NCBI RefSeq assembly: GCF_030463535.1
Contig: NC_132879.1
Span: 39,462,597-39,526,596, forward strand
Origin: Salminus brasiliensis
Lineage: Eukaryota; Chordata; Actinopteri; Characiformes; Bryconidae
Reading direction: 5' to 3'
Length of the DNA: 64,000 nt
Shown: piece after piece, positions 7,621 to 42,232 of the stretch
Position numbering within the stretch: position 1 is the first letter of the stretch
Layout: each line of letters starts with the position of its first letter
The notes under the pieces: generated by a model
What the model was told of the DNA's origin: nothing
What the model saw: the letters and a program-made list of their open reading frames with translations, nothing else
The model's database searches: none
Position numbers and translations under genes: made by a program

Positions 7621-7910
7621 GACATTTCAGCGGTTAGAGCGCCGGGATATCGATAACAGGGTTGTGGGTTCGATTCCCGGGCTCGGCAAGCTGCCACTGT
7701 TGGGCCCTTGAGCAAGGCCCTTTACCCTCTCTGCTCCCCGGGCGCTGGAGTTGGCTGCCCACCGCTCTGGGTGTGTGTGTGTACTCACTGCCCCTAACAC
7801 GTGTGAGTGTGTGTGAGTGTGTGTTCACTACCAGATGGGTTAAATGCGGAGGACACATTTCGCTGTACAGTGTACACTGTACAGTGACAAATACATGCAC
7901 CTTTACCTTT
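7621..7910 (+). mobile_element. tRNA-derived SINE
   Basis: The head resembles a tRNA gene: a box-A-like gcggttagagc and a box-B-like gggttcgattcccgg. A body follows (cttgagcaaggccctttacc), then a GT-rich internal stretch and a tail. A second copy of the same element lies in opposite orientation at 41950-42232 and aligns along its whole length; that copy preserves the complete box A (tggctcagcggttagagc). The head of this copy is truncated by a few bases. It contains a short internal duplication of tacagtgtacactgtacagt. Confidence 0.85.
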
Positions 7911-10530: not shown

Positions 10531-13500
10531 GTAAGACTGCATCACATACCTCAGAGAAGACTTTAGAACTATGACCTGCAATAGGTTAAAACATTTATGA
10601 GCACAGCTGGTGGTGTGGACACAATCTGTTAAAACCTACCAGGATACTTTCTTAGCTGGACTGTGTTCAGAAAGGATGAGTATAATGAACAGTTTCCAAC
10701 ATATTAATCTTAATGTTTTCCTTGCCTGCTAGTGAGGACTGCCTTGGTGAACGGACCCACGTACTCCGATCTTTGTTGAGAGACAGACTGAAGAAGAAGT
10801 ACCAAAACACAGATGACTATGTTCCAATGAAACTTTATTTATCCCAGGGAAAGAATAAAAGAATCCAGACTGAACAAGTGCCTGAAGGCCTGAAAGTCAC
10901 TGTAAAGGATTTTCTTAAAGATGAGAATGTAATTGAGTATGATGACCTCTTCAAACCATGCCCCGTCACAAATGAAGATGTCAGGACTGTTTTGATGAAA
11001 GGGATACATAGGGTAGGTAAAACAACTGCTTTGAAGATGTTTATGTTAGACTGGGCGGAAGGCAGAACACATCAGGACATCACTTTCGTTCTACCCCTCA
11101 GTCTCACAGAGCTGAGCTCGCTGAGGACAAAGAAATGCAGCTTCATGGAACTTTTAGGGTTGATCTTTCCAGAGCTGATGGACAGCGATATTCTGAAACA
11201 TGCCAGAGTCCTCTTTGTGCTGGATGACCTGAAGAGCTGCAGGGTCAAACTGAACTTCTGGCACACAAAATCTTGTGGTGATCCAGCCAAGAAGCTGACG
11301 CTGAGCGCACTGCTCGTAAACCTTATGAGAGGGGACTTCTTCCCGAAAGCCCAGATCTGGGTAGCGTCAAGTTCAGAGGGATCTGATTTCATCCCGTCTA
11401 AATATGTGCAGCGAGTTGTTGAGATTCAAGGCTTGGATGATGTTCAGTGGGAAGAATATGTTAGAAGAGCTGTGCGTGACAGTAACGTAGCTGCAACAGC
11501 AATCGTCCATGTCAAGTCATCAAATAATCTCTACTTCATGCGTTCTCAGCCAGGCTTTTGTCAGATTGCTGCCACTGTGGTAGAAGAAGTTATCACAAAG
11601 ATGTCGAACACGGAGCTACCACTGACTTTAACAGAGATGTACACACATTTCCTACTTATTCAGATGAGAAGAAAGGCTTCAAATGGAAACGCTGAGGCAA
11701 ACCACATGAAGACTGATGCTGAGGAGATCCTAAAGTTAGGCAAACTAGCATGGCACACACTTGAGAATGACTATTTGACTGTGTTTAAAGAGGATCTGAG
11801 AAATAATGATATGGCTCCATCATTTGCAGCTGAACTCTCACAGAAATGGCCTGCATTTCTTAAAGAGGAAGAACTAACTCAAGAGAAGGCATATCACTTC
11901 ACCCATCAAAGCACTCAGGCGTACCTTTCTGCATTGTATGTGGCTGTGAATTATGAACCCAGCCAAGGTAATGTGCTCCACTATACACTGACAGAGAGAG
12001 CAAAACATCTGTTAAAATCAAGTGATGCTCCCCGTGATATGCACAAAAGAGCCGTGGATAAAGCTTTGCAGAGCAAAGAAGGCACATTTGATTCCTTCCT
12101 CATCTTCCTCCTTGGAATATCTGCAGGTCCAAGCTTCAGGGATTTGTCATGTTTTCTTCCTGATTCTTTTAAAAGAGGGAGCTCAGAGACGATTGTCCCT
12201 TACATACTAAGGAAAATTAAGAAGAGCTCATCGCTTGATGTATCTAATACTCTCATCCGCTGTCTTGATGAACTGAATGTGTCTTACACTGTGGGTAAAA
12301 GTAAAAGCCAGAGAAAAGTCCAAGACAACTTAACACCCTCAGAGTGGTCTGCATTGTCAAAGACCTTGCTAAACTCTGAGGATCAGCAGCGAATATTTAA
12401 TCTTAAAGAATATCTTAACCCAGAAATGGCTTTTGTGAGAATGTTGCCGGTTATCAAGGCCTCGAGAATTCTAAGGTAGGCAGAATTCTTTGAAAGACTG
12501 CTTTGAAAGTCCAGCAAACATTGTGAATGTTTTCCAGCAACCATGCAAAACTGTAAAAACTGAGCTTTGAATAGTTTTTAGTTGCAAAATGTCAACTATC
12601 ATCTGTGCATATGATTCAAATGCAAATGATTTGAAAGAAACAATATATAGATAGTGGGTTTTATGTGGTTGCATAGTCCTAGATAGTCAAACTGTATATG
12701 TTGATTTACACAATTCACTTATTTCTGTTGGTTAGCATGGCTAGTAGGTGCTAGAATTCTCCATTCTAACATTTGTTTAAAACTTTTGATAAATCATGTC
12801 TCAACAATGTTTCTCTGGTTTAGACTCTGTGAATGCACAGATCTGTGCTGGATGTTACTAGCCTCTGCTCTGAGATCACCATCCAACAGCGTAAGAGAAA
12901 TTGACATACAGGATACCATCTGTGAAAAAGGAAATATTTGGTTATCTGAAGCACTGAAAAGTCCCAACTGCAAAGTAGAGATCCTAAGGTGAGGTTATGA
13001 ATATATATATATATTTAATATCACAATTTCAAAGGATGTTTACAGGGGCAATTCTGAAAATAATATTTATATTAATACATAATAATACATAATAATAAAG
13101 TACCATAGCACCTTTGCTTAACATAATGAAATGAAGTCTACACACCTAAAATAGTAGTTGTACTGTTGTTGTAGTTGTAATGTAGTTTGTAGTAGTACTA
13201 AAAATCGTGCCCAAAATTTTGTGCCAATTAACTGGTTATTTATACATGCAAAAACAATATATCATAGATGTATATACAGTGGGGAAAAAGTATTTAGTCA
13301 GTCACCAATTGTGCAAGTTCTCCCACTTAAAAAAAATTAAAAAAATTTGTCTGATTTTTAAAGAATTTATTTGCAAATAATGCTGGAAAATAAGTATTTG
13401 GTCACCTACAAACAAGCAAGATTTCTGGCTGTCACAGACCTGTAACTTCTTAAGAGGCTTCTCTGTCCTCCACCTATTACCTGTATTAATGGCACCTGTT

Positions 13501-16500
13501 TGAACTCATTAACAGTATAAAAGACACCTGCCCACAACCTCAAACAGTCACACTCCAAACTCCACTATGGTGAAGACCAAAGAGCTGTCGAAGGACACCA
13601 GAAACAAAATTGTAGACCTGCACCAGGCTGGGAAGACTGAATCTGCAATAGGCAAGCAGCTTGGTGTGAAGAAATCTACTGTGGGAGCAATAATCAGAAA
13701 ATGGGAGACCTACAAGACCACTGCTAATCTCCCTCGATCAGGGGCTCCACGCAAGATCTCAGCCCGTAAGGGTCAAAATGATCACAAGAACGGTGAGCAA
13801 AAATCCCAGAACCACACGGGGGGATCTAGTGAATGACCTGCAGGAAGCTGGGACCAACGGTACAAAGGCTACTGTTAGTAACACACTACGCTGCCAGGGA
13901 CTCAGATCTTGCAGTGCCAGACGTGTTCCCCTGCTTAAGCTAGTACATATCCGGGCACGTCTGAAGTTTGCTAGAGAGCATTTGGATGTTCCGGAAGAAT
14001 ATTGGGAGAATGTCTTCTGGTGAGGTGAAACCAAAGTAGAACTGTTTGGTACAAACACAACTCGTTGGGTTTGGAGGAGAGTGAATGCTGAGTTGCATCC
14101 AAAGAACACCATACCAACTGTGAAGCATGGGGGTGGCAACATCATGCTTTGGGGGTGTTTCTCTGCAAAGGGACTAGGACGACTGGTCCGTGTACGTGAA
14201 GGAATGAATGGGGCCATGTATTGTAAGATTTTGAGTGCAAACCTCCTTCCATCAGCAAGGGCATTTAAGGTGAAACATGGCTGGGTCTTTCAGCATGACA
14301 ATGCTCTCAAGCAGACTGCCAGGGCTACAAAGGAGTGGAGTTTTGTTATTGACCAAATACTTAATTTCCACCATTATTTGCAAATAAATTCTTTAAAAAT
14401 CAGACAATGTGATTTTCAGAATATTTTTTCTCATTTTGTCTCTCGTAGTTGAGGTCTACCTATGATGTCAATTACAGGCGTCTCTCATCTTTTTAAGTGG
14501 GAGAACTTGCACAATTGGTGACTGACTAAATACTTTTTTTTTTCCCCACTGTAACTTTTACCTTTAATTGTCTTTCACTATTAGGCGGATTGCTAATTTT
14601 GAGATACACTCATTATTTTGAGATGCTAAGTAATTTCTTTTGAGATACTAAGTTATACTTTTCTAACTGGTATGGGCTTTCATACGTTTGGTATAATTGT
14701 CCTGCTGGTATAATTGTTACTGTATGTCCTTCATAGCAATTGTTGGCCTATCTGCAGCTTTCCTCACAAGTCTACCTTAGCTGAGATGATGAGTTTTGAA
14801 GGGTGGCCTTTATAGACAGATATCTAGGTGGGGTATTTCAATCCTTTTAAGAGGTTCAAGGTATTGTGCAAATGTTTCCTGCAATTGAATGACTCAATGA
14901 ATGAATCAAATGATAGTATAGCACTTAGTAATAAAGGCTATAGGGAACTGTGTTTATTCTACATTTGACTAAACATAATACAGGTGAGTTGCTATTAAAA
15001 AAAATGAATTAATTTGTTAATTTTTGATGCTAAAACACAATCATTTATGTGTTACTTTTAGAACACCACACTGTCCTAAACATGATGATTCAGAGACGTA
15101 CCCTCCGATTTTGGCTCTTTTATCTAACCCATCACATCTAAGAGAGCTGGACTTGAACTTCAATATGATTGTTAATGACAAGACACAGGAAGACCTGGCA
15201 ACATTATTAGTGGTGCCTGGAGCTCATCTGGAGAAACTTGTGTAAGTAAAGTTAAAGGCAGTGTACACTATTCTGAACTTGACAGCAAAACAAAAACACC
15301 CCCCTCCCCTTCAGTACTGCTTCAGAAGCTCCATCTTAAATTCATGAACATGCATTGCCAAGGTAACAAATGTATAATAAAAAAAATTGGGTAAAAAAAA
15401 AAGTAGGTTTAAATGATAAAGAGTCTGTAATATTTTAAAAAGGTCCTCATAAGGTACTGTGAGATGTTAAGAGTAGGTTTTTCCAGTGTGTAATATTAAT
15501 GGAATTCCTGGTCTTCCAGTGATTAAGGATACTTTTCTTGGCCATGGCAAGTGCATTCAGTATGGGGGTGGTGCATTTGGTCGCTATTGTTTGTCATTAG
15601 GAAATTATGAATTTGAATATTAGGAGTGCCAGATGACTGATTTGACACATAGATGCCCTCTTACATATAATGTAAGATATAATTCAATACAAACTTATTT
15701 TACTTTGCATGTAAATCTAAATGGCTTGTTTATGTTGCTATGTTCTCCTCAGGGTTCATTACAGCAAGCTTTCAGCAAACTTCTTCAAGAACTTGGCCAC
15801 AGCTCTCCGTAGCGATACATGCTGTCTGAATGAACTAGATTTGAGGCTCCACTACGGCTTTGTTGGTGATGAGCGTGTAATTCCACTACTGTCGGAAGGA
15901 TTGGGAGACAGCTGCTGCCAACTTAGGGTTCTGAGGTAAAGTAAAAAAACAAGTAGGAAAGGTCATGTGCTTTCCATATTTTAAACACATGTTTTCAGAT
16001 ATTTGTTGTCACTACAACATGGTGAAACCTAGTGGCTCCAGAGAACCATCACACTGGGTCTGCAGAAGTGGGTGTTCTTATTAACCTACACACAGCTTCA
16101 GTGCGCAGGCACAGTCATCATCTGTGGTGTAGATGTAAGAAGTGTCTGAAGTCTGAAATATACTCATATGCATTTGTTTGCTTGTTTAAAAAAAATCACA
16201 TCTCCTAACTTGCTTTACAGGCATTCATATCTAGTAATTTGTTTCACACAGACAAATCAATACAGTTTAAAGACAGTGGGACCATTATGAATAACTAGAA
16301 GCACTTTTATCCCAGTAAGTGTTATCACTCTAAATAATGCTAGAATGTTGTAATTTAGTTCCAACTTAAATGTTTAAGTAAGGTCTATCCATGTTTTTTT
16401 TTTTATTTGTTCATATAATTAATGCCATCATTAGTTGCCAATGATGCCAATGCCATGACCTCTTAAATGCCATCATTAGTTCCCGGCTTTTTCCCTCCCT

Positions 16501-17132
16501 GGTATAACTTAAGAACAACTCAGCTAGTTTGCACTGCTTCCCATGTAGTTACTGATAGTAGTCCTTAGGGTGTAATATGGAGATGAGACTGGTGACAATG
16601 TTACGTGCAGATAGCTGTCACAATTTGTCACGAGACAGAGGCGGACATACTTGCAGGATAATTGTTTTAATACAAGACAAGAAAACAGAAACCAAACAAG
16701 CACAAAGTTTAGCAAAATAAAGAACACAAGACTAACAGAAACACATGCACAACCGACCACATGCACAACCGAACACATGCGCAAGACCAGACAAGGAATG
16801 ACTGAAACAAAGGGGTACCTTGGGAGCACATGGCAAAACCAAACAAAGGCAGACATGACAACTGGGGCAGGCATGGCAATAGCAAACATGCCTTGACTGA
16901 TTAACTGCATCTGGTGTTAGTAATAAGTCTAATAGTAAGTAATAGTTAATTTGCCTTTGTTGGCTGGAACTGTACCTTTAAAATATGTTCATGACCATAG
17001 ATATATATCACTGCTGTCCAAATAATAACATGAATCTCCAAAATGTAACCTTTACAGAAGAATGCTAAAACATTCTTAACTTTTAAGAATGTAAAGTGTC
17101 TTTATTCCAGTAATTTTAGATCATGTCTCATT

Positions 17133-17186
<54 letters not shown>

Positions 17187-20100
17187 TGAAAAAATGGAAG
17201 TGCTTATTTTTTGTGAACAGCAATGATCTGAACGTTTGACTTGGCTGGATCATATTATTTTTCACTTTAAAAATATTTCACATTTACAGCATTTAGCAGA
17301 CACGCTTATCCAGAGCAAAGATTTGTCCTTTCATTCATTTGCCTTTTTTGTCTTCACGGTCTCTCCAGACTGGCAGATGGGTCTATAAGACAAACAGGAT
17401 TTACTGCACTGGTCTCTGCTTTTTCCTCAAACCCTTCACACCTAAAGGAGCTGGACCTGAGTTATAGCACACCTGGACTTGAGGCTTTTCTTCAGCTTTG
17501 CTCTTTGCTGGGGGACTCGCGATTCAAACTGGAGACGCTGATACTGATTAACTTGGAATGGTGGGACCATACAAACCCAACTTTTACCTTCAGGTTAGTT
17601 TGCACACATTAATCTGTAATTTCATAGCACATTTCACCACTTAGTATTACTGCACTCTACCATTAGACCATCTTCATCAGCTGTTGACAGTAGCTGTTTA
17701 ATCATATAAGTTATTTGTCTTCAAAGACAGAACATTTTTATGCTAACTGAAATATAAGTTTGGGATGGTTGTAATATGATGTAAAAAGGAACTCTACAAT
17801 GAATGGATCCTTACCATGGTGTTTCACCTTTCCCGTTTCATCCAGGAAACCAGTGAGCACTCCCCATTTTGGAGGATTGCAGAGGTAAATGATCAACTTC
17901 CCATAGTATTTAACAAAGCCTAAGACTAAGACAATAAGACTGGCTTTACACAGTGCAATTTTGCAATTACACTCTTACACAAAAGTTGTGAGCTCCTGAA
18001 CTTCATAAAATATATGTTTCATGAAACAATCAAAATGTGGTAATGCATCATGTGATCAAGTCAAACATTATTGTGTGAAACATTATTGCATAACATGGAA
18101 AAAGACAAAGGTTTTTAAAGATCCGGAAGCGGAGTTCACAAGTTCAAAGTTAAAGGAACACTGGCTACACTACCTGGACGTGACAGAAAGAGGAAGCTAT
18201 CACAGGCTGCCTCCAGATTCCTGAGGAGGCAGGTGGTCAAAAACCCTTGAGTGACTACAAAAGACCTGCAGATTAGGTTGCAGTGAGCACTAAGGTTTCA
18301 GTTTGCACATTCAGTTCAGTTCCATATGTGTCGGAGGAAACAGGTTCTAGTCTTGGGGCTTTGCTAGTAATTGGCCTTCCTAATTTGGTAGAAAATGGAG
18401 ATTGCATCTGTGTATATGTAAAATAGAATTTCAATCCTAAAATGCTTCTTTAATTACAGTGCTTGTAACACAAAGCATGCATTGTTATCCACTGGCTTCT
18501 TCTCCTTTTTATTTTTTCAGGATCAATAAGTCAGTGACTTACTGTATTTTCTATGTTTAATGCTTTTTAACAATATTAAAGACATGTTTCCTTTTCTCTT
18601 TAATATAACTGTAATGCTAGGGTCTCCAGAACCTCGTTCTGTGTGTCTGTGTATCTATTCCTCTCCAGCTCTTTGTCTGGCTGTCTATCCCTCTACAGCT
18701 CTATGTCTATCTCTCTATCTTTCTCTCTGCAACTCTATCTGCCTGTCTACACCCTACAACCAGTATTTCCTTCAGGAAATGAATATCTAGTTTGTATTTG
18801 TGGAAAGTAGCAGGTGCTAGCAATATAGAAATCACACTTTCGACCAGCTTAATTAAATAAACGTTTACACAGTCTTTGTGTCTGTGTAGCACACTGAGCA
18901 TGGAGAATAAAGCAGAGCAAAACTTGTCTGAGGATGTGAGAACCAAAATTGTAATACAGTATGGATAATCCCAAGATTTTAAGTTTATTTCCAGAGAACT
19001 GAATGTTCTAGTGTCCACTATTCACAACATCAATAAAAAGTTTACAACCCATGGCACTTACCTAGCTAAACTCACCTGGATGTGGACAGAATTGATGATT
19101 GCAATCAAGCAGACCTGCACACAAGGTACAACAGTGTCAGCTCACATTATTGGTTGCCCTTTTAAATGAAATATGATGCTATGGTATGAGACTGTTGACA
19201 CTGGCTGGAGTTTGCAGAATCTACCAGAAGAAGCCACAGTCCTTCTGGAAGAATTCCTTGACAAAAATAGCTTATTGGTAAAGCACATCATTGTACCATT
19301 TACAAGGTAAAACAAGGCCAGTCCATACAGTTAAACATGGTGGATATTCAAAGATGTTTTGGGGATGTTTTTAGTTTGTTCGATCAATCAGCATGCAAAA
19401 AGTAAAATATTTTAAACAGGCCAGCATTATGATATAATACAATAAAACATGACATCCTGTAACACAGTACAGTAATATGCACTGTGTTGTTGCAGCCAAA
19501 CTAGTGTACTGTTTTTTTTTTTTTTTAAATGGGTTTGAGTAAATGGCAGGTTAAAATTATGTGGCATGCAACAACTGCTTGCATGAATGTGTGTGTATAC
19601 CCATACATTTCTATAGAAATTGAATGAATGTGTAGAGGATATAATGTAATCCTTTTAAAATTATTGTGCACAATTATACTATTGCCACTATATGCATGCT
19701 TGATGACACCCTGAACACCACTAGCAGCAGCGAACAAAATCCTGGAAAGTATTTTTATGAACTACCACCTGAAAGACTGGTTTTTAGGATTATCTGTTCT
19801 TTAACCCATATACACTCTGTCGTTGTGCTGAATAAATTAAATGGTGATCCAATTAAGTAAACATTTTGTAAACATTGGTATTTGAAAATGTATGTATTAT
19901 GTGTTTTACAAAATTCAAGAGAGACATTTTTTTTTAGAACAACTTTGATATTTATGCATTCTTTTGTGTTTTTGTGCTGCTGTTAGACAAAGCACTGTTG
20001 TCCTGATGAGTGAAGCATATAAAGCCCTGGCCTTAGCCCTTTGCTCATCAAACCTCAGAGTTCTGGACCTCAGTAATAACTGCTTTGAAAATTCCATAGT

Positions 20101-22802
20101 GGAGCTGCTTTCAGCAGGACTGGCCAATCCTGCATGTAAACTGGAGGTTCTCAGGTGAGTTTGAATGAAATGCAAAAAATAATTTGTGTCTTGAGGCAGA
20201 TGGGCTACAACAGCAGAAGACAGTGACAGGTTCCACTTCTATCAGCCAAGATCTGAAAACTAAGGCTGTGGAATGCACAGGCTAACCAAAACTGGACAGT
20301 TGAAGGCTAGAGAAATGTATGGGTCAAATAGGGTCAAACCTGCCTTGTGTCAAAAGTCCATTTGCTTGCCATTTTTTTTCCCCAAGTGTTTTTTTGTCGG
20401 GAACACCCTGGGAATTTTTTTTTTGGTTTACTTGCTTTTCTTTTGCCAACAGAAAGCAAGTTACTGCAAACAAAAACAAAGAGTATTAACACATAGGTAA
20501 TCAATATTTTCATCCAGAAAGAAGTATCAGTACCATACATCAGGGTTGTTTGTGGACTGATTGCTTTTTTCACTCAAATACCTACATGCGCTGTTGTGCT
20601 CTTTCTGCCTTTTTTGTATTTTTTCTGACAAGGGCCCCATTATGCTTTTCAAAGTAGCAGTTTTGTGATCATGGTTTGTGGATGGCTTGCTGCCACTGAA
20701 GGAACTTTGAATTCACTGTGAATTAAATGCACCGTATCAGAATTCCTCAAAAGAATGTCAGGTCACCTCTCCTTGATCTGAAATTTAGCCTCATATGTCA
20801 CTATGCTGAGGCAGTTTTGTCAGAAGGAGTAGGTCAAAACAGAGTTGTCACATTGTTTTGTGTTTAGTTATATTACTTTCATTTCTCAATAATGTTAAAA
20901 TGAAGTTCAAATGTTTATATGTTTAACACAAAGGTGTTCTCAGGGTGTGCAGGTTTTTTTTACATGACTGTATATGAACACAGTCGCTACTGGGTTCGGT
21001 TAATACAGTATTTAGCAGTAAACACTTCTAAATTGACATGAAAATAACTCGTTACTTAAAAAGTAACTTAAGTTCTAATTTGTCACTGATTGTAGTTGTG
21101 TGTCTTTTTAAGAATGGCACGATGCAACGTCTCAGGGGTGGGAGCTGCTACACTGGCAAATGCTTTGCTTTTGAATCCATCCCACCTGCGAGAATTAAAC
21201 CTGAGCTACAATCCAGTAGAAGGAACTGGCTTTGAGCAGCTCAACTCTCTTGGAAATGACCCAGCAATCAAACTGGAGAAAATAATGTGAGTATGAGGAA
21301 GATTGTCAATTGTGTAGCTTGGAGGCAAAATAAATAACATTTATTAGCAGAAAAAAAAAAAAAAAAAACAGGAGGCAAAAACAAAGACCAGCAAAACTAC
21401 AAAACTAAAACAAGAAACAGACTGAATACAAAGAAACCAAGCCGCCATGATGAACTATCATGACACATGCACACAGAGAGACTGACAAGGTACACATGGG
21501 GATGGGACCTGAGACACAATGATAAACTGAATAGAAGACTGGACCAGGGACACAACAGGAGCTGATTCAGGAGCCTTGAAAGGGGGCCTGACGAGGTTAT
21601 ACAGGAGGTTGGGCAGGGGGTCGAAAAGGTGACTGGACCAAACCAGACAGGGGAACAGGGACAGAGACAAAACCAGAAACGGGCACAGGAACACACACTG
21701 AGATGGGAACCAGCACAGGAACAGGTACAGAAACAAACATAGACAAGAGCCCAGGACTGGCAGTAGTCTGAGGTAAAGCCTGAGAGATGGGACGACCTAG
21801 GAGTCAGCACAGGAGCGGATGACCTGGCTGGGTCGTGGGTCTTTGCTACAGAGGCCCTGCTGGTTTAAGAAACCAAAGTCAGGATCTGCTTTGATCTGGA
21901 ATTTCACTTCCTGTTTCTTTATATAAAGTTTCATTGTAAACTATAAGTCATTGTAGTGTTTGTTGTAATAAAACAGTGTAATTAACCAACAAGGCAATTT
22001 TGGGATAGCTTACTAAAGTGTTCTTGTCTGTCTCCTACAGTGTAGAGGGGTTTGGAGAACGTCGCAGCATAGAAGAGCTTTGCCGATGTAGGTGTGCATT
22101 TATATGGATTGTAGTTGTGATCTAAGCCATTTAAAACACATTGTCTCCTTCCTCTGCTTAGATGATTGCTCACTGACTCTGGATCAGAACACAGCCTCAC
22201 AGAATGTGCAGGTGTCCAATGGGGACAAAGAAGCGTGGCACTACCAGCCCTACCATTTCTTATATGACCTCCATCCCTTTGACCTGCCTCTCCCAGAAAG
22301 CCCAGAGACGTTTAATGTGTTGTCCCAAGTGATGTGCAGAGAAGGGCTTGCTGGTCGCCACTTCTGTCAAGTGGAGTGGTTTGGAAGGTTTGCCACTATT
22401 GGGATGGCCTACAGTGACATGAGTAGGAAGGGATGTTTGTCAGCCTGCACACCAGGATACAACAAGAAGTCCTGGGCAATTTCAGTCAGCACACCCTATC
22501 CGTTATTGCAGGCACTTCATGATGGTGTGAAAACTCGAATTCCCGATCGCTCACCCTGGAGAGTCGGGTTGTACCTCGATTGGTCTGCAGGCATTCTGTC
22601 CTTCTATGACATCACACGAGACGAGGCTGAACTCATCCACACATTTTATGCCAAGTTTACCAGGCCACTCTACTTGGTGTTCCACATTTCTGCTGGGATA
22701 CGCCTGCTGCCGCCAAACCCTGGCCCCGTCTGCATCCATGATCACGATCCCTGGGGTATGTTACGAGAGTGCAAGGGCTGCAATGGATCAAAGGCAGGAT
22801 AA
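10487..22802 (+). CDS. NLR gene 1: FISNA-NACHT-LRR-B30.2 innate immune receptor (fish NLRC3/NLRP12-like)
   Basis: Predicted cytosolic pattern-recognition receptor of the large fish-specific NLR expansion. Proposed coding exons are 10487-10530, 10733-12475, 12824-12988, 15062-15241, 15753-15935, 17369-17593, 17846-17884, 19987-20154, 21113-21286, 22041-22087 and 22162-22802. Every junction has AG/GT borders with matching phase; the sum is 3609 bases, 1202 codons plus TAA. Residues 1-14 are a short leader, 15-595 FISNA-NACHT and winged-helix, 596-846 and 860-973 LRRs, 990-1202 PRY-SPRY. No PYD or CARD is encoded in the window. An in-frame ATG eight codons upstream (10463) is an alternative start; 10487 was chosen because the ATGGCA start aligns with gene 2. 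Oddity: the Walker A loop carries histidine and arginine where proline and glycine are usual. Exon calls rest on splice sites, frame closure and the parallel structure of gene 2. Confidence 0.88.
10733..12475 (+). CDS. NLR gene 1 FISNA-NACHT exon
   Basis: One large exon of 581 codons, preceded by ttttccttgcctgctag. The first part ([18 protein letters not shown]) and the following stretch match the FISNA region that precedes NACHT in fish NLRs. The ATP-binding loop reads GIHRVGKTT (11001-11027), then FMLDWAEG, which is typical of fish NACHT domains. The Walker B strand is [10 protein letters not shown] (11211-11240), lacking the usual DGLDE acidic pair. [15 protein letters not shown] (from 11898) is the winged-helix motif before the LRRs. 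The exon ends in phase 2 at CTAAG followed by gtaggc. The ATG at 10713 is in the intron, so the true exon starts at the splice acceptor. Confidence 0.95.
12824..12988 (+). CDS. NLR gene 1 LRR exon 1
   Basis: Phase 2/2 exon of 55 codons between ctctggtttag and gtgagg. It begins [17 protein letters not shown] and ends [10 protein letters not shown], the alternating module shape of ribonuclease-inhibitor-type LRRs. The first 65 bases are identical to gene 2 LRR exon 1. The middle ([10 protein letters not shown]) has diverged and is one codon shorter. Confidence 0.9.
13277..14551 (+). mobile_element. Complete but dead Tc1/mariner element in an intron of NLR gene 1
   Basis: Terminal inverted repeats start cagtggggaaaaagtatttag and end with its complement (ctaaatac...ccccactg). 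TA is present at both borders (13275-13276 and 14552-14553), the diagnostic target duplication. The element is 1275 bp. The inner repeat includes ttatttgcaaataa at both ends. It is absent from the equivalent intron of gene 2, so it arrived after the duplication. Confidence 0.92.
13567..14340 (+). pseudogene. Tc1-like transposase pseudogene
   Basis: The ORF starts [20 protein letters not shown], the paired-like helix-turn-helix of Tc1 transposases (13567 to about 13770). The frame then shifts to 13778-14023 and again to 14081-14340. The first catalytic aspartate position is lost: the codon series after VFW reads stop-Gly-Glu-Thr instead of Ser-Asp-Glu-Thr. The second aspartate survives in [11 protein letters not shown]. 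The sequence then jumps to the 3' terminal repeat, deleting the third acidic residue. It cannot make active enzyme. Confidence 0.9.
15062..15241 (+). CDS. NLR gene 1 LRR exon 2
   Basis: 60 codons between gttacttttag and gtaagt, phase 2/2. It contains [20 protein letters not shown] and ends GAHLEKLV. The LxxLxL core and the flanks match gene 2 LRR exon 2, while the residues after the ELDL strand differ almost completely. Confidence 0.9.
15753..15935 (+). CDS. NLR gene 1 LRR exon 3
   Basis: 61 codons between gttctcctcag and gtaaag, phase 2/2. Core [19 protein letters not shown], tail CCQLRVLR. Its partner in gene 2 is one codon longer. Confidence 0.88.
16421..16915. repeat. Intronic repeats: short direct repeat and A/C-rich non-autonomous repeat
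   Basis: The 16-mer aatgccatcattagtt occurs at 16421-16436 and 16466-16481. From about 16610 an A- and C-rich stretch with ladder-like copies of acatgcacaaccgacc runs to 16910. It resembles in texture, though not in exact sequence, the stretches at 21340-21830 and 23105-23380. Antisense and sense ORFs through it show only low-complexity composition. Confidence 0.5.
17128..17183. repeat. (TA)n microsatellite
   Basis: About 25 TA units in the intron before LRR exon 4. Confidence 0.95.
17369..17593 (+). CDS. NLR gene 1 LRR exon 4 (long)
   Basis: 75 codons between gtctctccag and gttagt, phase 2/2. Core [20 protein letters not shown] followed by [15 protein letters not shown], then a non-LRR tail ([11 protein letters not shown]). 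It is longer than the usual 57-60 codon module. It lies in the same place and has the same length as gene 2 37404-37628. Confidence 0.88.
17846..17884 (+). CDS. NLR gene 1 39-bp microexon (proposed)
   Basis: The acceptor cgtttcatccag and donor gtaaat enclose 13 codons ([13 protein letters not shown]) in the right phase. The equivalent place in gene 2 (about 38067-38113) is recognisable but has lost the acceptor, frame and donor. The exon can be skipped without shifting the frame. Whether it is really spliced in is not proven by sequence. Confidence 0.5.
18637..18745. repeat. Degenerate pyrimidine-rich minisatellite
   Basis: Repeated tctatctctctatct / ctctgtctgtct units in the intron between LRR exons 4 and 5. 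The ORF across it is low complexity only. Confidence 0.7.
18860..19420 (+). mobile_element. Strongly decayed Tc1-like element
   Basis: Fragments such as [10 protein letters not shown] and [16 protein letters not shown] give a helix-turn-helix start, followed by a segment with the SMTVKHGG-like order (acatggtggatattcaaag). There are many stops. It resembles another decayed Tc1 at 44760-45350, but they may be different subfamilies. Confidence 0.5.
19987..20154 (+). CDS. NLR gene 1 LRR exon 5
   Basis: 56 codons between gctgctgttag and gtgagt, phase 2/2. It has the textbook module [20 protein letters not shown] then [17 protein letters not shown]. The acceptor AG is intact here and mutated to GG in gene 2. 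Confidence 0.93.
20196..20350 (+). mobile_element. Tc1-like transposase fragment
   Basis: gggctacaacagcagaagac and aatgcacaggctaaccaaaa correspond to the central transposase region just before the first catalytic aspartate in the common fish Tc1 family. It is cut on both sides and carries stops. Confidence 0.6.
21113..21286 (+). CDS. NLR gene 1 LRR exon 6
   Basis: 58 codons (174 bp, the usual LRR exon size in this family) between tctttttaag and gtgagt. Core [20 protein letters not shown]. It ends AIKLEKIM in phase 2. Confidence 0.93.
21340..21830. repeat. A-tract and degenerate acagg-type minisatellite in an intron
   Basis: Poly-A at 21349-21370 is followed by irregular repeats built from gggacaga / ggaacaggtacagaaac. 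The long minus-strand ORFs across it are low-complexity artefacts. There is no counterpart in gene 2. Confidence 0.6.
22041..22087 (+). CDS. NLR gene 1 linker exon before B30.2
   Basis: 47 bases between tctcctacag and gtaggt encode [15 protein letters not shown] plus split codons, the short linker seen before PRY in fish NLRs. The donor at 22088 rather than 22092 is required to keep the B30.2 exon in frame. Gene 2 has an identical arrangement. Confidence 0.85.
22162..22802 (+). CDS. NLR gene 1 PRY-SPRY (B30.2) exon
   Basis: The last exon, 213 codons. PRY begins [21 protein letters not shown] signatures are [45 protein letters not shown] and [17 protein letters not shown]. In this family B30.2 is a protein-interaction surface at the receptor C-terminus. 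A segment after DKEAWHYQ is about ten residues longer than in gene 2. The tail ([10 protein letters not shown]) is unusual but shared by both genes. Confidence 0.95.
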
Positions 22803-23075
22803 CTATCACCAATAATGGAGTCCTACTCCTACTATTGTTCTTTACTCTTCTTCTGTTGTACAATATGTAGTAGGGATGGTGATAAATACTTCTGAAGAAC
22901 AGATTTAAAATATTTGATACCATAACATTACTATGTCAGAAACATAAGGTGTGAAGTCCTATGTCCTATGCACTTATTCAGTAATCTTAACTGATCACAC
23001 ATAGGAGCACACACCTGGTATTAGAATAGTTACAGTACAACTAAAATGTACTGTACTAGCTATTTTGACAAAATT

Positions 23076-23505: not shown

Positions 23506-23942
23506 TCACTTCATTATATAAAGCTGGAATGGCAGAGAGATGCATGTTTTCTTTGGTAATTCGTACTGCCTGTCAAACGTTTTCAGCACGTTTTTGAATG
23601 CTGGTTTTTCCACCGTATTTAACGGCAGCATCTCTTTGGCTATATAGTCAGTTACACCATTTGTAAACGTGCGCCATTTTACGCCATCACGTTTATATTT
23701 ACACTGTCGAGCAAAGGCATCCGTGATAGTCATCTGCTTGGACGCCCCCTCTCCAACCGGGTTCTTTGTTTCCAGCTCGGAAAATTGAACTGGATGGTTG
23801 TGCTTTAAATGTGCTCTTAGGTTAGTTGTATTACCACCTTTTGTTGCCACTGTTTTTAGACAAAGACGACATACCGCCTCGTTAAAGCTGATGGGCTCTC
23901 CGCGCTCATTTGTCTTAAAGCCAAAGTCAAGTGGGTTTATTG
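23506..23942 (-). pseudogene. hAT transposase N-terminus (BED zinc finger), truncated
   Basis: Reads FGFKTNERGEPISFNEAVCR, then CRLCLKTVATKGGNTTNLRA and HLKHNHP: the C-x2-C ... H-x-H pattern of a BED finger. It continues through a dimer-forming region (DAFARQCKYKRDGVKWRTF) and stops at IMK. The catalytic core and hATC dimerisation domain are missing. The start is cut by a nested insertion at about 23940. Close to ZBED-type sequences, but transposon-embedded rather than a host ZBED gene. Confidence 0.85.
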
Positions 23943-24415
23943 TCATTTCAACTACATACAGAGTACACAGTGAAACGAAACAACGTTCCTCCAGGACCAT
24001 GGTGCAACATAGACCGTGCATACAAGACACAAGTGCAACACAAACAAACAAGTGCGGACAGACAACACAGTACAGACAGAGGATAATAAATAATGACGGT
24101 AGTGTGCAAGTTGTGCAATGTGCAATAAATAGAGTCCAGTGAGGTAGTAACGTTATTAGTGCAAATGCTTGTGCAAAAAATGCTTCCCATGTTATCTGGG
24201 ATAAATGGTTGGAAAGAGAGAGAGAGGGGGAGAGAGAGAGAGAGGGAGAGTGTAAGATATCAGTTCAGAAGTTGAGTTGTGTTGAGGAGTCTGATGGCTT
24301 GGGGGAAGAAGCTATTGCAGAGTCTGGTCGTGTTGGACCGGATGCTGCGGTACCTTCTTCCTGATGGCAGGAGGGAGAAAAGTGTTCCCACACTGGAGCA
24401 GTGCAATGTGGCTTT
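23940..24415 (-). mobile_element. Repeat nested inside the hAT element
   Basis: Interrupts the BED frame. It contains tgatggcttgggggaagaag and ggatgctgcggtaccttctt, a sequence I recognise as recurrent in fish genomes without being able to name its class, plus a GA-rich run at 24217-24250. Confidence 0.5.
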
Positions 24416-30206: not shown

Positions 30207-33200
30207 GTAAGACTCCATCACATACCTCAGAGTTTAGAAGTATGACCTCAAATAAAAGCAGTTGTACTTGTAAAAGGTGTGACAGTATGACCTGCATTTC
30301 TCAATTTAACAGTATTCAGGAATGAATATAATGGACATAGCTGTGGCTGTAATGCAAAAACAGTTTTTTGAAAGCATCTTGGCACAACCAACAATTCTTA
30401 AATGGTCAAGCAGGCATTACCCTAAAGACTCCCTCAACCATTTAAAATGATTGTGAGTCTAAGATACGGTCCGGAATGTTAATCTTGATTAACACTGCGG
30501 TTATTTTTATTTATGAATTCTTTTTTTTTCCTTGCTAGTGAGGACTGCCTTGTTGAACACACCCACTTACTCAGATCTTTGTTGAGAGACAGACTAAAAA
30601 AGAAGTATCAAAGTCTTGACATCACTGACTATGTTCCAGTGAAACTCCATTTATCCAAAACAAAAGAAATCCAGAATCCAGTGCTTGAAGGCCTGAAAGT
30701 CACTGTAAAGGATTTTCTTAAAGATGAGAATGTAATCGAGTATGATGACCTCTTCAAACCATGTCCTGTCACAAATGAAGATGTCAGGACTGTTTTGATG
30801 AAAGGGATACCTGGGGTGGGTAAAACAACTGCTTTGAAGAGGTTTATGTTAGACTGGGCGGAAGGCAGAACACATCAGGACATCACTTTCGTTCTACCCC
30901 TCAGTCTCACAGAGCTGAGCTCGCTGAGGACAAAGAAATGCAGCTTCATGGAACTTTTAGGGTTGATCTTTCCAGAGCTGATGGACACCGATATTCTGAA
31001 ACATGCCAGAGTCCTCTTTGTGCTGGATGACCTGAAGAGCTGCAGGGTCAAACTGAACTTCTGGCACACAAAATCTTGTGGTGATCCAGCCAGAAGGCTG
31101 ACGCTGAGCGCACTGCTCGTAAACCTTATGAGAGGGAACTTCTTCCCGAAAGCCCAGATCTGGATAGCGTCAAGTTCAGAGGGATCTGATTTCATCCCGT
31201 CTAAATATGTGCAGCGAGTTGTTGAGATTCAAGGCTTGGATGATGTTCAGTGGGAAGAATATGTTAGAAGAGCTGTGCGTGACAGTAATGTAGCTGCAAC
31301 AGCAATCGTCCATGTCAAGTCATCAAATAATCTCTACTTCATGCGTTCTCAGCCAGGCTTTTGTCAGATTGCTGCCACTGTGGTAGAAGAAGTTATCACA
31401 AAGATGTCGAACACGGAGCTACCACTGACTTTAACAGAGATGTACACACATTTCCTACTTATTCAGATGAGAAGAAAAGCTTTAAATGGAAACGCTGAGG
31501 CAAACCACATGAAGACTGATGCTGAGGAGATCCTAAAGTTAGGCAAACTAGCATGGCACACACTTGAGAATGACTATTTGACTGTGTTTAAAGAGGATCT
31601 GAGAAATAATGATATGGCTCCATCATTTGCAGCTGAACTCTCACAGAAATGGCCTGCATTTCTTAAAGAGGAAGAACTAACTCAAGAGAAGGCATATCAC
31701 TTCACCCATCAAAGCACTCAGGCGTACCTTTCTGCATTGTATGTGGCTGTGAATTATGAACCCAGCCAAGGTAATGTGCTCCACTATACACTGGCAGAGA
31801 GAGCAAAACATCTGTTAAAATCAAGTGATGCTCCCCGTGATATGCACAAAAGAGCCGTGGATAAAGCTTTGCAGAGCAAAAAGGGCACATTTGATTCCTT
31901 CCTCATCTTCCTCCTTGGAATATCTGCAGGCCCAAGCTTCAGGGATTTGTCATGTTTTCTTTCTGATTCTTTTAAAAGAGGGAGCTCAGAGACGATTGTC
32001 CCTTACATACTGAAGTTGATTAAGAACAGCTCATCGCTAAACATATCGATTTCTCTTGTCCGGTGTCTTGATGAATTGAATGTGTCTTACACTGTGGGTG
32101 AAAGTAAAAGCCAGACAGACTGTCAGAGAAAAGTACAACAGGACTTCACACCCTCAGAGTGGTCTGCTTTGGCAAAGAACTTGCTAAATTCTGAGGATCA
32201 GCAAAGAATGTTCGATCTCAGGGAGTTTCGTAACCCTGAAATGGCTTTTGTGAGACTGCTCCCAGCTATCAAGAACTCAAGAGTTCTCAAGTAAGTAATA
32301 TTCTTTGAAAGGGATTAGAGGTTCTTTTTGCCTGTCCCATTAGCATATGAGCAGTTGTCTTTGTCTTCTGGAACATTTCTTGACTTCCACTGTTTCTTAA
32401 TGTAGTTTTCTTAATGACTGGAAGCACTTAAATTAACATGTAAAACCTTTGAAAACAAGTTGATAACATTAAAGCTGCATAAACTAATGACAACCAAGTG
32501 ATTGAACTTCTTCAAGCTAATGAGTGATTCTGTCATGTGTTGTATTGTTAGAAAACACAATGTACAAACCATGTATTTTCGTTGGGGACAAAACTAATCT
32601 AAACTACAGCTTTTCTGGATTCTGTTTGAGAAAGTGTGCATTTTGATTAGTTTAGTTAAGTATAGTTGTTTGTATGTTGCAGACAATGGAAAGCTAGAAA
32701 TGTATAATACAACATGTGCATCAGAATCAAATAAATTTAATGTGAAAGAAATCTAAATAAATAGTGTGTTGCATGCTGTCTTATAGTCATATGCATGTCT
32801 TATTAGTCAAAGTGTAAATATGTATTTTCAGTGTTGACTTGCATTGCTAGTGTGTGCCACAAGTTTTTAGATGTTGCTAGTTGCAAAGTCAAGGGGTGCA
32901 AATTTCTGTCTGGCGATTCGATTTAGATTTTTGGGTCACAATCCGATTTAGAAATGTGAAAGGAATGATTTTTCTATTCAAATGGTCCATACATTGTGGT
33001 TTAATTATGTGATTGACAAGATGAAACAACAATGTAAACAATTTTTAGTATAATTTAAAACAATACTTTTAGGTTCCATACTGTCAAATATTTTAGCATC
33101 ATTTTAAATGTATACCAAAAATAGGATTTTGCATAACATTCTGTAACTTAAATTACTAGTATTAGGTTAGCTTTGCTGCCTGTCTTTTTCTTCCCAAAAA

Positions 33201-36200
33201 AAAAAAGAAAAAATCCATCAATGAACAAATAGTTTAAAATATATTAATACAAAAGAAAACAGACTTCAGTCTACCATAGTGCATTAACCTTTAACTGAAA
33301 ATAAAATTCAAGACTTTAAAGTCATAGTTTATCTCTGCCTTTAAGTTTTAAAACGTAGCGCTAGCCTTAAAAATAAAATACATATTTCACAGACTTTTAA
33401 ACCATATTGCATATTTATACGACATACTTTGTGTCCAGCCTATTAACCATACAATTAAACCCCTCGCCTTCAACTGAATAATCCTTTGTGATATAGCTAG
33501 CAGGCGATGGAGTGGGAAATCTTCACAGCCCATTGGGAATTGGCTGGAGATTTGTTGCATTGCTCCAGAGGTCGCTGGTCTGCTGCTTTTGGCCGGTTTT
33601 AAAAACTTCTTTTAGTTTAGGATGATGTGGAGCCAAATGGGCCTGCGCATTTGTCGTATTTCCGAAGTGCATCAACTTAATTTTACACTCCTTGCGAACA
33701 ATTAGGCTCATATCAAGCTCTCTCTTCCCCGGGACGTTGTAGAATCCGAATTGTGCCCAAGCACTGGCTTTTAGCGACGACGGGGCAGGTTGAAGCACGC
33801 TTGCTGTACGGTGGCATAGACGGCCACCTTCTGCGGTGGCCAAATGGACACGTAATGCGGTATGCAATGCGCTTGGGAGTAGGGGGGGAAATAGCGGCAA
33901 AAAATAAAACTTAAACGCATTTGAAATCAATTTTTACAACACCCCTACAAAAGTCACAGTTTGGTTTAGGCTGGTACAACGGGAAAGCAAACTCCACTAA
34001 ATGCACAAACCCATTTGCATTATGGTTTTCTTTCTTTTCGAGTTTGTTCCAGCCTAATGTGGTTTTGTTCCCCCTGAGGTAGTTAGTACAACCTGTATTG
34101 TGTTAACTATTAGAGACAACAAAACTACCATAGCATTACCATAGCATTACTGGTAAAACCTCTGCACTTTCCACAATACTATGAAACATAATGTTTACTT
34201 GCTAATGGCTTAGAGCGGAAAATTTGTGGGATTTTTTTGGTACAAATTGGTTTACACATTACATTAATCAGTTGTAAACGTACTTGTATTTTTCATGCAA
34301 CTGTGTGCTCAGCACAGTAACATCTGTACCATGACGGCACAAATACACGGATCGTTACACCCCTATTGTTAACCCCTGTCTCAAGGATGATGTTGTTTCT
34401 CTGGTTTAGACTCTGTGAATGCACAGATCTGTGCTGGATGTTACTAGCCTCTGCTCTGAGATCACCATCCAACAGCATCAGAGAAATTGACATAGAGCAT
34501 CACTTTATATATAAAAAAGCAATTGATTTGTTATCTGAAGGACTGAAAAGTCCCAACTGCAAAGTGGAGATCCTCAGGTGAGATTTTCTACTAGATTAAA
34601 GTTACTTTTTGTTTTTCTGTGCAAAGTTTGAAGTTAATGAAGTTAGTGCTGTTTTGATTTCATAAACCTTCTAGTAGTTACTGTAGCTTTCAGTTGCCTC
34701 AGTTCTCTGATGCAATATATACCAGCCTGTACACTATTTTGGCTCTGTAGAGGTGCGTTTCTCTACTTAAAAAAGGAAGGTAAAAAAAAGTTAATTTTTG
34801 ATACATACTTCCACTAAATGTATTACCTATATACATATGTTTTTAGAACACCACATTGCCGCTTTTGTGGCAATTCAGAGCCTGACTCTCTGATTTTGGC
34901 TCTTTCATCTAACCCATCACACCTAAGAGAACTGGACTTAAGTAATGCTCACAGCGTTCCTGACAAGGCACAGGAAGATCTGGGGAAATTATTGGTGGAT
35001 CCTGGAGCTCATCTGGAGAAGCTTGTGTAAGTAAAGACATAAAGCATTATACCATATAAGTTTATGTTCTAAACTACCAAGAAGGACACCCGGGTTGTGT
35101 AAGTTCAGTAGTTTTATATCTCTCACTTCTAATTCAGTGTGAAATAATGTATATGGGTGTGCCAATATGGGAATAAGCTAATATTCTGTACTATACTGTG
35201 CATAGCTACCATCAATGCCAGTACATAAACATGTTTTAGAACTTTGGATGAAATCCACCTGGATTAGTAGTACAGAGAAATCTACCATTTACAAATGCAG
35301 TTAAATGAATAAAACACAGGTACAATGGCACAGTAGCCCAGCATCTACTAAACATTCTGCTTTTCTGGTGTACACCACATGCATCATCAGGATAATAAAA
35401 TGAAATATTGGCCAAACTGAATCATTTGTCCAGTGATTTTTTTTAAAGCAATTATCTGATACTGATATGATTACAATATTATGCTACATTCCTATGACAT
35501 ATGTGTAATAAAAAGGATGATGGCCATTCCTAATACTAGGAAATTGTCTAGAAAAAATATTTGGAACAAAGAACTTTCAGAAAGAAACACATGACTGATT
35601 TGACACACATTATGTTCTCTAATTTAATTTTGCAAAGATGGAAAGATTGACATGATCCGTCTGAATGTCTTTTTTCTGTTGATATGTTTGGTCTTCCTCA
35701 GGCTACGCACCCATGGAAGACTCGAAGTAAGCTTCAGCAAGATCTTGGCCACAGCTCTCCATAGCAGCACTTGCAATCTGAAAGAACTAGACTTGAACCA
35801 CGCATACAGCAATTGTGATGACGAGAGTGCAATTTCACTGCTGTCGGCGGGACTGGGAGACCAATGCTGCCAAATTAGGGTCCTGAGGTACATAAATTAG
35901 GATTCTGGGGTAGATACTTCTTATAATTTCCACAGATATTCCAAAAGAACCATAACAGTGTGTGTGGATGTCAAATTGAATGTATAAATGTGAATTGATC
36001 TTCAAAGTGCAGGGCACTCTGATGGTGTAGATGACTGCATTTATATTTTAAGTCATATGTCTGTTTTGCAATAAATGATTTAAACAGAAGCAGTAATAAT
36101 AAAGGATTTTAAAGTGATAACAGTGATAATAAAGGACTAATAAATGATTATCTTATAAAACTGCCAGAAATGCAGATTCTGACTTTTAGTATAGATGTTT

Positions 36201-39200
36201 TAAATATATTCAATCAGAATAATGGTTGGGTGACTTGCTTTGGGTGTAGGTGATTTACTTGCTGAAATGAATAGTTCTGCATTAAAAAAAATGAGCTATT
36301 TTAGTTTAAAGTGGGCTATTCTTTGCTAACATTGCTAACAAATACTGGAGTGTAATCTTTGTAAATACAAGCTTAAAAATGGCTCAACACAGATCCAGAT
36401 CTTCATTTATTGCATGCAAATCAATGTGGTTTAGACTTACTGTAGTTGATCAAAACAAAAAGTTCTCAGCAGAGTTGAATGGGGGTGCAACCAGTTTAAG
36501 TAACCAGAACCAGTTCTACCTCAGCACAATATGTGGTATCATTCTGCAAATCACGGCTCAGTATAAAAGCTGAATTGGACTACTAAATAGCACATTATGT
36601 GGAAGATTTTGTAGATTTAAACATTTAGACTGAAGTCTGTTTGTTTATATGTCTATATGTTTGTTTATGTTTTGTCTGTATAGGTTTTAGCGTTTTGATA
36701 AATCAGCATTTGGGATAAAATGATGTCATTGTTTATCAGCATTTGCCTAGCACCTTTTATTGAAAACTACACTCAAAATGACTGCATTTGTGGTAAATGA
36801 TATGCTATATGTCTGTCCATATTTGTGGACACCTCTTCTAACTTTAAGTTGCTCCCACAGATGTGCAAATGCGCACACACACAGTTTGTCTAGTCCCTGT
36901 AGAGTACTGTCATTAGAATAGGAATCTCTGGAGCAGATAAACATGAACCTAATGCCGGGCGTAAGCTAGGGAGGTCTAAAACCTCCCAAGAGCTATGGAG
37001 CTGTGCTCTCTGGAACGATGGTGCTCCATTGAATATTTTTGATGAGTTGGGCAGTTGAGGATAAGGTGGGGTAGTGATCATCCAACATCCTGACTTCGCT
37101 AATGCTCTTGTTGCTGAATGCAATCAAATCCTTACCCAATATTTCAAACTCACAACAAAATCAGGATAAACTTTAATGACCTTGATTTCAGATGAAACAA
37201 TGAATAAGCAGGTGTCCCAATACTTTTGAACACCCTTTACTACTTTCCAAAACAGTTATTTTTTGCAATTAAAAAAATATAAATGAGAAGTTTAAAATAA
37301 GTTAAAAATAATAATAAGTTAATTAAAAAGAGGGTTGCAGTCTCAGTCCTGTGACATTTAATGACTTTTATCCATCTTCCTTATTTTTTCACTGTCTCTC
37401 CAGACTGGCAGATTGTTCTGTAAGACAAACAGGATTTACTGCACTGGTCTCTGCTTTTTCTTCGAACCCTTCACACCTGAAGGAGCTCGACCTGAGTTAC
37501 AGCACACCTGGACTAGAGGCTTTTCGTCAGCTTTGCTCTTTGCTGGAGGACTCTCATTTCAAACTGGAGACGCTAATACTAAATAAACTGGATTGGTGGG
37601 ACTTCAGAACCCCCATGTTGGCCGTTAGGTTGGTGTGCACACATTCACCAATGCCATTTTAGAGCATATCTCACCACTTAGTGTTACTTCACCATATTTA
37701 TCAGCTGTGAGGGAAGTCAATAAACAATAGGTCTGCCTATAACTGTAACCACCAGTGTGAAAATTATATTAGAGCAGGTCTTAAACACATAAAACACATT
37801 CCTTGCCACTGTCGCTTGCTCAAAAGAGGCTTGGACCCGGATCTCTGTAAAGCTGCTTTGTGACATTTGTTGTTGCTTCTAGTTCCCGATCTAGTCTAGT
37901 ATCTACTGACAGACTTTAATTACAGAATATCTTTTTTCTGCAAACTATTATAACTATAATTTAAATAACTATAAACTAAGTATTAGTTTTTAGGTTTTGT
38001 TGAAATATGGTGTCATACCCCTGAATAAGGAACTTTTTCCCCCACTTCTCCTGTTTTATCAATGAGAAAACCAGGAATCAAATGAGAGCACCCCTTTCTG
38101 GAAGTTTATAGACATAAGTGGGTTCTTATAGTATTCTTTAGTTTTTTAACACAACTTTCAACTTGAAATGTACACAAAACTACATTTCTATTGAGCTGTG
38201 TAGTGTTCCCAGCTCACTCTGCTGCAACATTCGCAAGCCCCTCTGCTTTATTATGTCAAACACCTTATTTCAAATGACTGAATAAAACTAAAGATGTCGT
38301 ATTGGACGAGATCCTCTTGATCCACATAATTCATGGTTAACAGTCATAGCTGCTTGTGCCAACATCTTTATTTGTTATTATGATCTACATAGCTAAATTA
38401 ATTTTTTCCTCTGTTAATGTCCAAGGACAACAACTATTTTGATCTGGTTCTTTGTGTATACCTGGCACAGGATGATTGAGGCATCAAGTTCAACAGTTAG
38501 TAACATTGCGCCTCATTCATAAAACGCAAGCAAAACTAATTTACACGTAAACCGTGCATAAAATCTTTTTAGCGAAAGACCAAATCCATTTAAGCATTCG
38601 TAGTCTTCAGAAGTGAAGACTACAACCAAAATTTACACACAAAGTGTCATTTGATGTGATTCAAGCACTTTAATTTAAGTACGTACGATTTGAGTATCAA
38701 TAATTAATAATAATTGTTCTGTTGGTTGGTCTGCACAAGCAGGCATGTCTGTGATCCATGCAATAACTAGTGGGATAAAATTAAAATAAAACCCTTTAAA
38801 TCTAACCTCTGGATCCTTAAACCTGGCCCTTTAAATAACATTGTCTTCAGGATTAAAACGTTAAAGCTTTGAATGGTGCCTGGGTTTGAAACACTGTAGA
38901 GATTGGTTTTGGGACAGACAGAACAGAAGCAGAAGCGTCAGACAGAAGCTAAAGCAGAAAAGTGTTGGTAGGTCAGACGCTGTATCATTGGTGGGGCAAG
39001 CAGGCAGTGTTGATACTACATATAGCGGGCCGTGACCGTACCCAACTGCATTTGGTTTACTTGCAGTTTGCTCATGTTTCGAGGGGTTTATGAATGAAGG
39101 ACAGATTAGAAAAGCCTAATATATCGTAAAGCGTCATATATATACACAAATTCACATAAGTTGTAACTAAATTATCTTCTGAGTTAATATAGTGTCTCAA

Positions 39201-41508: not shown

Positions 41509-41811
41509 ATATCACCAATAATGGCCACATGCTTGTCAGAGACATATGCAGTGTCTATAAAGTTATTCACCCCACCATTCACCCACCATATATTGGATGG
41601 TTTCCCTCTTTGTTGCTTTAAAACAGTGTGTGCAGAATTATTAGGCAAGTTGTATTTGAGAGGAATCTTTTTTTTCAACCCAAAAGACAGATAAATATCA
41701 AGGCTTAATATTTTTGGAAGTTGGAGTGTTTTTTTTTTTTAGATTTGGTTATCTTAGGAGGATATCTGTTTGTGCAGGTAACTATTACTGTGCAGAATTA
41801 TTAGACAACTT

Positions 41812-41949: not shown

Positions 41950-42232
41950 TTTCTTTAAAGGTGCACGTATTTGTCACTGTACAGTGAAATGTGTCCTCCG
42001 CATTTAACCCATCTGGTAGTGAACACACACTCACATGTGTTAGGGGCAGTGAGTACACACACACACACACACACCCAGAGCTGTGGGCAGCCAACTCCAG
42101 CGCCCGGGGAGCAGAGAGGGTAAAGGGCCTTGCTCAAGGACCCAACAGTGGCAGCTTGCCGAGTCCGGGAATCGAACCCACAACCCTGTTATCGATATCC
42201 CGGTGCTCTAACCGCTGAGCCACCACTGCCCC
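41950..42232 (-). mobile_element. tRNA-derived SINE nested in the Tc1 element
   Basis: Minus-strand head has a complete box A (tggctcagcggttagagc) and box B (gggttcgattccc), then the same body as 7621-7910, with a CA/GT run inside. It is the better-preserved copy of the two. Confidence 0.88.

Follow-up and report, generated by a model that had tools for sequence, protein, structure and literature searches.

The window, a 64-kb stretch on a 60.5-Mb contig of the 1.07-Gb Salminus brasiliensis genome, contains two NLR genes, gene 1 and gene 2, arranged in tandem on the same strand with a spacing of ~19.8 kb. Each comprises one large NACHT exon (encoding NACHT and NLRC4_HD2), six LRR exons and a PRY/SPRY exon, and the annotated proteins P0001 and P0122 cover both genes of the pair. 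A large NACHT exon followed by LRR exons and then a B30.2 exon is the plan of NLR-B30.2 (NLR-C) genes. A search for the FISNA domain (PF14484) in front of NACHT gave no match in either exon at a maximum E value of 10, with HMMER filters discarding most matches above about 0.1; the FISNA signal of gene 1, 13.3 bits against a cut-off of 28.1, lies at residues 290-327, behind the NACHT match. Because the FISNA profile is unmatched, we do not file the pair as FISNA-bearing; on its predicted domains, it consists of NLRs with B30.2 and the NLR-B30.2 exon plan. In precomputed domain assignments, the profile is likewise not recognizable in the Astyanax, Pygocentrus and closest carp relatives. NCBIfam yielded one match per full protein, far below cut-off.

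Searches of the whole assembly at the DNA level found these two loci only with the NACHT exon and two copies only with the SPRY region, both counts being lower bounds. In a protein search of the genome, none of the remaining paralogues listed exceeded 39% identity to the pair, and no third copy or donor emerged from either kind of search. With two copies found and no close paralogue listed, the exchange partners discussed below are gene 1 and gene 2, unless a donor was lost or missed. The exons at 10731-12476 and 30540-32291 are far from the genome's other listed NLRs. NACHT matches of near-equal score occur on a small contig (G000:C70:13094-14680) and a large one (G000:C15:33879329-33880915), perhaps as an unmerged haplotype copy.

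The surroundings of the pair hold several other features. A Tc1/Tc3-like transposase frame with DDE_3 and HTH_Tnp_Tc3_2 domains, the latter below cut-off, lies at 42211-43065 on the minus strand and has an inverted relative at 7627-7876. Frames at 13759-14452 look transposon-like, and a frame with a BED zinc finger, located between the NACHT exons of the two genes (23509-24264, minus strand), is possibly transposon-derived. Downstream of the pair, exons with ETS and PNT domains (48787-53770, minus strand) likely belong to one ETS-family transcription factor gene. Within the pair, the acceptor AG expected at LRR exon 5, which is kept in gene 1, reads GG in gene 2 (39474-39484), and the annotated gene 2 protein, P0122, is consistent with use of an AG six bases further on. 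P0001, the annotated isoform of gene 1, ends before SPRY; its end (22081-22097) matches a splice donor that lies four bases beyond the one needed to read SPRY in frame.

The NACHT exons of both genes, all on the plus strand, are divided as follows.

10733 to 10882, plus strand: NACHT exon of gene 1, diverged 5′ part (dS 0.448, indels)
10883 to 12208, plus strand: homogenized core of the gene 1 NACHT exon, from the P-loop NACHT to most of HD2 (change-point, dS)
12209 to 12475, plus strand: NACHT exon of gene 1, diverged 3′ part (dS 0.487, indel)
30539 to 30685, plus strand: NACHT exon of gene 2, diverged 5′ part (alignment, dS)
30686 to 32011, plus strand: homogenized core of the gene 2 NACHT exon, the partner tract (alignment with gene 1, change-point)
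32012 to 32290, plus strand: NACHT exon of gene 2, diverged 3′ part (alignment, dS)

A sequence-only reading of the window had proposed that 10885-12212 and 30688-32015 are nearly identical, silent sites included, between diverged exon ends and introns. Base-by-base alignment bore this out, with 23 of 1328 positions different and no indel. Twenty of the 23 differences are transitions, the longest exact run covers 310 bases from 11681, and 16 differences fall within the last 1150 bases, slightly more than the "about a dozen" counted by eye. Change-point segmentation of the exon alignment gave three pieces under the best BIC: 10716-10882 with 30 of 161 positions different (18.6%), 10883-12208 with 21 of 1326 (1.6%), and 12209-12496 with 55 of 289 (19.0%). 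The change points at 10883 and 12208 thus lie within 4 bases of the proposed limits. Indels lie towards both exon ends, as had also been noted, and the noncoding parts of the two genes are mostly unalignable apart from a few stretches of 64-74% identity.

Silent divergence (Nei-Gojobori dS) is 0.448 at the 5′ end, 0.035 in the core and 0.487 at the 3′ end. It is therefore far from uniform across the exon, the possibility against which the proposal was to be checked, with a step of about 13-fold between core and ends. The first ~155 bases of the core are intermediate (7 differences, dS 0.127), and BIC did not favor a fourth segment for them. When silent differences were permuted along the exon, none of 20,000 permutations had as few in a 442-codon window; the longest codon run devoid of silent change is weaker evidence, being reached in 5 of 20,000. 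We also considered GC-biased conversion and found no signal of it: third-position GC of the core is 0.457 in both genes, whereas the exon ends span 0.42-0.48 and the core of the other paralogues is higher, at 0.54.

The core includes the P-loop, which in gene 1 (11005-11039) reads GIHRVGKT...M. The H-R of this motif is A-G in the 31 other paralogues compared, and the position of the M is K, R or C in them; gene 2 reads P-G there, and the seven relatives for which the site is available show either P-G or S-G. The ATPase site of gene 1 may thus be altered.

Outside the NACHT exons, homogenized patches and diverged parts alternate as listed here.

12808 to 12890, plus strand: short identical patch of 16 intron bases and the first part of LRR exon 1 (0 of 83 mismatches)
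12824 to 12988, plus strand: gene 1 LRR exon 1 (splice sites, P0001)
15061 to 21287, plus strand: span of gene 1 LRR exons 2-6 (dS 0.33-0.52)
34846 to 39994, plus strand: span of gene 2 LRR exons 2-6 (dS 0.33-0.52)
21921 to 22818, plus strand: second homogenized patch of gene 1, intron to SPRY exon (alignment, change-point; two copies found in the genome)
22239 to 22322, plus strand: diverged PRY island, enclosed by the second patch (18 mismatches and 30 gap columns)
40640 to 41524, plus strand: gene 2 counterpart of the second patch (alignment, DNA search)

The short patch at LRR exon 1 ends sharply, the 98 bases that follow it carrying 18 mismatches, and dS over the whole exon is 0.16. At the dS values listed, LRR exons 2-6 have not been recently homogenized. 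The second patch contains intron, a small exon (22041-22087), the SPRY exon (22162-22802) and 16 bases past the stop codon, where it ends abruptly. Homogenization thus includes noncoding bases at two places, the 16 before LRR exon 1, which are identical, and the 16 after the SPRY stop, which carry 1 mismatch. The dS of the SPRY exon is 0.078. The introns inside the patch are 10-13% different, which is more than expected of one recent tract, and the SPRY patch therefore probably either predates the NACHT event or is composite. The PRY island within it has a 27-base indel, and 12 of its 18 aligned residues differ; dN (0.52) exceeds dS (0.20) there, over only 11 silent sites. Gene 1 is longer in the island by 9-10 residues than gene 2 and the Astyanax (AstB, see below), Hoplias and Colossoma proteins.

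Silent sites could in principle be kept identical by purifying selection acting on the core at the nucleotide level, through codon usage, RNA structure or a regulatory element, as the core encodes conserved domains, the NACHT ATPase and most of HD2. We probed this with the other NACHT exons of the genome: 38 NACHT reading frames, less 5 duplicates, gave 33 distinct exons and 528 pairs, for all of which silent divergence of flank and core was measured in the same alignment columns. The flank/core ratio is 10.2 in the gene 1/gene 2 pair and at most 1.39 in the other 527 pairs; among 130 close pairs it does not exceed 1.28, with a median of 0.84. As no other pair is comparable, a general constraint on third positions is excluded for the exons compared, in which core silent sites change as freely as those of the exon ends. 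The core protein, moreover, is only 72-76% identical to the Astyanax copies. We thus reject silent-site constraint for the exons compared, whose other 527 pairs lack a like pattern, and consider such selection an exceedingly improbable cause of the identity.

The proteins of related species were then compared, with two different genes of Astyanax mexicanus, P0078 (AstA, partial) and P0123 (AstB), and public proteins of Pygocentrus, Colossoma, Acnodon, Hoplias, Prochilodus and carp. The AstA model, partial and 534 amino acids long, spans only the last 133 residues of the core. In the tree of this core end (133 columns), gene 1 groups with gene 2 (support 100/99), and constrained pairings of gene 1 with AstA (p = 3.8e-5) and of gene 2 with AstB (p = 5.2e-5) are rejected. 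In the tree of LRR1b-LRR3 (156 columns), by contrast, gene 1 groups with AstA (100/98), and pairings of gene 1 with gene 2 (p = 0.0047) and of AstA with AstB (p = 0.00064) are rejected; gene 2 with AstB is weakly supported there (64/42). Two regions for which AstA has no data also join the Salminus genes, with gene 2 plus AstB rejected for the first 308 core columns (p = 4.6e-5) and for the SPRY core (p = 0.009). For the 3′ end of the NACHT exon, the best tree joins AstA and AstB (84/81), and the three other pairings tested are not rejected (p = 0.07-0.16). LRR4-5 likewise join AstA and AstB (83/88), with gene 1 plus gene 2 weak (53/35). The orthologue pairing thus rests on the 156 columns of LRR1b-LRR3.

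Since the trees conflict, the duplication would be older than the split between Bryconidae and Acestrorhamphidae and the core would have been overwritten later. Discordance of this kind is what interlocus gene conversion classically leaves when it follows an old duplication. The distances from each Salminus core to AstA and to AstB are about equal. In the core end, AstA and AstB are 83% identical to each other and each 72-74% identical to the Salminus copies, and they form a group that is not fully supported (91/90), which suggests that the Astyanax pair was homogenized separately, and earlier, in this region. AstA and AstB are 88% identical in LRR5 and 50-52% identical in LRR1b, LRR2 and LRR3, a pattern that suggests a further conversion in LRR5. 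A search for gene-1-type proteins with residues 215-400 of P0078 found one more Astyanax record, P0238 (99%), and the other 118 of the best 120 of 737 matches were all at most 51% identical (Acnodon); a length limit kept long proteins such as P0001 out of this search, so that absence elsewhere is not implied.

NACHT cores less than 2% apart within exons that otherwise differ by ~19% are, in our view, very probably the product of recent non-reciprocal gene conversion between the tandem copies. The locus displays raised identity with limits on both sides (10883-12208), silent identity beyond that of other paralogues (0 of 527 pairs comparable) and a gene-tree conflict between the tract and the rest of the gene (core end versus LRR1b-LRR3). 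The sequence-only reading had named recent gene conversion or unequal exchange; its general proposal holds, with "recent" in a relative sense only, as the shared third-position pattern that would have spoken against it is absent from the other 527 pairs of the 33 NACHT exons and as the trees of related proteins conflict between core end and LRRs 1b-3. It did not cover the start of LRR exon 1, the SPRY patch or the likely parallel case in Astyanax. Of the two processes, we prefer gene conversion, since a single exon contains both the rise and the fall of identity and no more than two copies were found. Unequal crossing-over would have a suitable substrate in tandem copies that share a strand at a distance of 19.8 kb, and a whole exon might also have been replaced. 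A single crossover, however, leaves one junction and an altered copy number, and here both sides return to 19% divergence inside one exon with only two copies found, which makes these routes very unlikely.

Assemblies are known to be error-prone at long exons that are almost identical, and one copy could have been corrected with reads of the other during assembly or polishing. Against this, 23 scattered differences persist in the core, gene 2 but not gene 1 has the paralogues' common residue at the amino acid differences at 11010, 11334 and 11361, and a second, partial homogenization is likely in Astyanax; we regard an artefact as no more probable than unequal exchange. A third copy, since lost, might instead have been the donor to both genes. 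The about equal distances of the two cores from both Astyanax copies favor neither gene as donor, and in zebrafish the number of NLR copies differs strongly from fish to fish (PMC11192531). However, the DNA searches of the assembly, whose counts are lower bounds, revealed no third copy, and this scenario needs more steps; it appears improbable, if slightly less so than the two just discussed.

Under gene conversion, a tandem duplication before the split of the Salminus and Astyanax lineages would have given the two copies. Break repair within the long uninterrupted NACHT exon would have used one copy as the template for the other and, by proceeding without crossover, would have left background divergence on both sides and no extra copy. 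A like event would have affected the SPRY exon, and another would have occurred independently in Astyanax. Introns, the ends of exons and the short LRR exons would have been spared for lack of length or because they had already diverged too far to pair. Conversion would have fallen on the NACHT and SPRY exons, where uninterrupted homology is longest, and the short LRR exons between diverged introns would mostly have escaped. Such a neutral account based on pairing length is enough for the NACHT core. The PRY island and the LRRs could also have been kept apart by selection for different recognition, as has been argued for zebrafish B30.2 domains (PMC4852459). A broader proposal, which we regard as tentative and rather doubtful as a whole, is that conversion maintains a shared switch with private sensors: in characiform fishes the NACHT core of this NLR pair, joined in Salminus by the SPRY frame, would be copied over again and again while the LRRs and one PRY loop are kept apart, because the two receptors would need compatible NACHT oligomerization surfaces yet different targets.

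The pair offers a clean case of conversion, resolved to the base, in an isolated two-gene NLR lineage, with both a silent control within the genome and a tree conflict across species. With two copies only, it offers a simpler setting than zebrafish in which to ask whether NLR switches are kept alike for function, in mixed oligomers, or only through long-exon pairing. It also cautions that dating fish NLR duplications from NACHT trees can give wrong ages.

Gene conversion among zebrafish NLRs was reportedly studied by Howe and co-workers. In the parts of the zebrafish account available to us, conversion acts differently on the NACHT and B30.2 exons of NLR-B30.2 (NLR-C) genes, and the divergence of B30.2 is argued to reflect selection for different recognition (PMC4852459). 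Those genes resemble the Salminus pair in their large NACHT exon, LRR exons and B30.2 exon, in a dS that is low for B30.2 and, within groups, for NACHT, in substitutions clustered in hypervariable parts of B30.2, and in that conversion tracts shorter than the exon were considered by the authors (PMC4852459). They differ in that hundreds of genes are described there by median values, unlike the two-gene lineage of Salminus, for which we report tract limits to the base, a tree conflict between two species and an unmatched Pfam FISNA profile. In the available portion of the round goby genome paper (PMC6988351), gene conversion is mentioned only for opsin and odorant receptor genes. We found no published account of the Salminus pair among the best matches of our literature search, which had most subscription journals outside its scope. 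The mammalian TLR1 and TLR6 genes, as far as the excerpts at hand describe them, underwent independent conversions of one region in nine species (PMC2077338). They too are tandem innate receptors with one region in which paralogues are closer than orthologues, their N-terminal part being closer between orthologues (PMC2077338), but they belong to a different receptor family, and the nine species there compare with one species here plus a likely second, the latter on 133 protein residues only. Long-lasting concerted evolution of mammalian gene pairs similarly makes paralogues closer than orthologues in stretches, in what is, from its accessible text, a general survey of human gene pairs (PMC2720389). 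The Salminus pair is a well-supported new and unusually clear case of this already known process.
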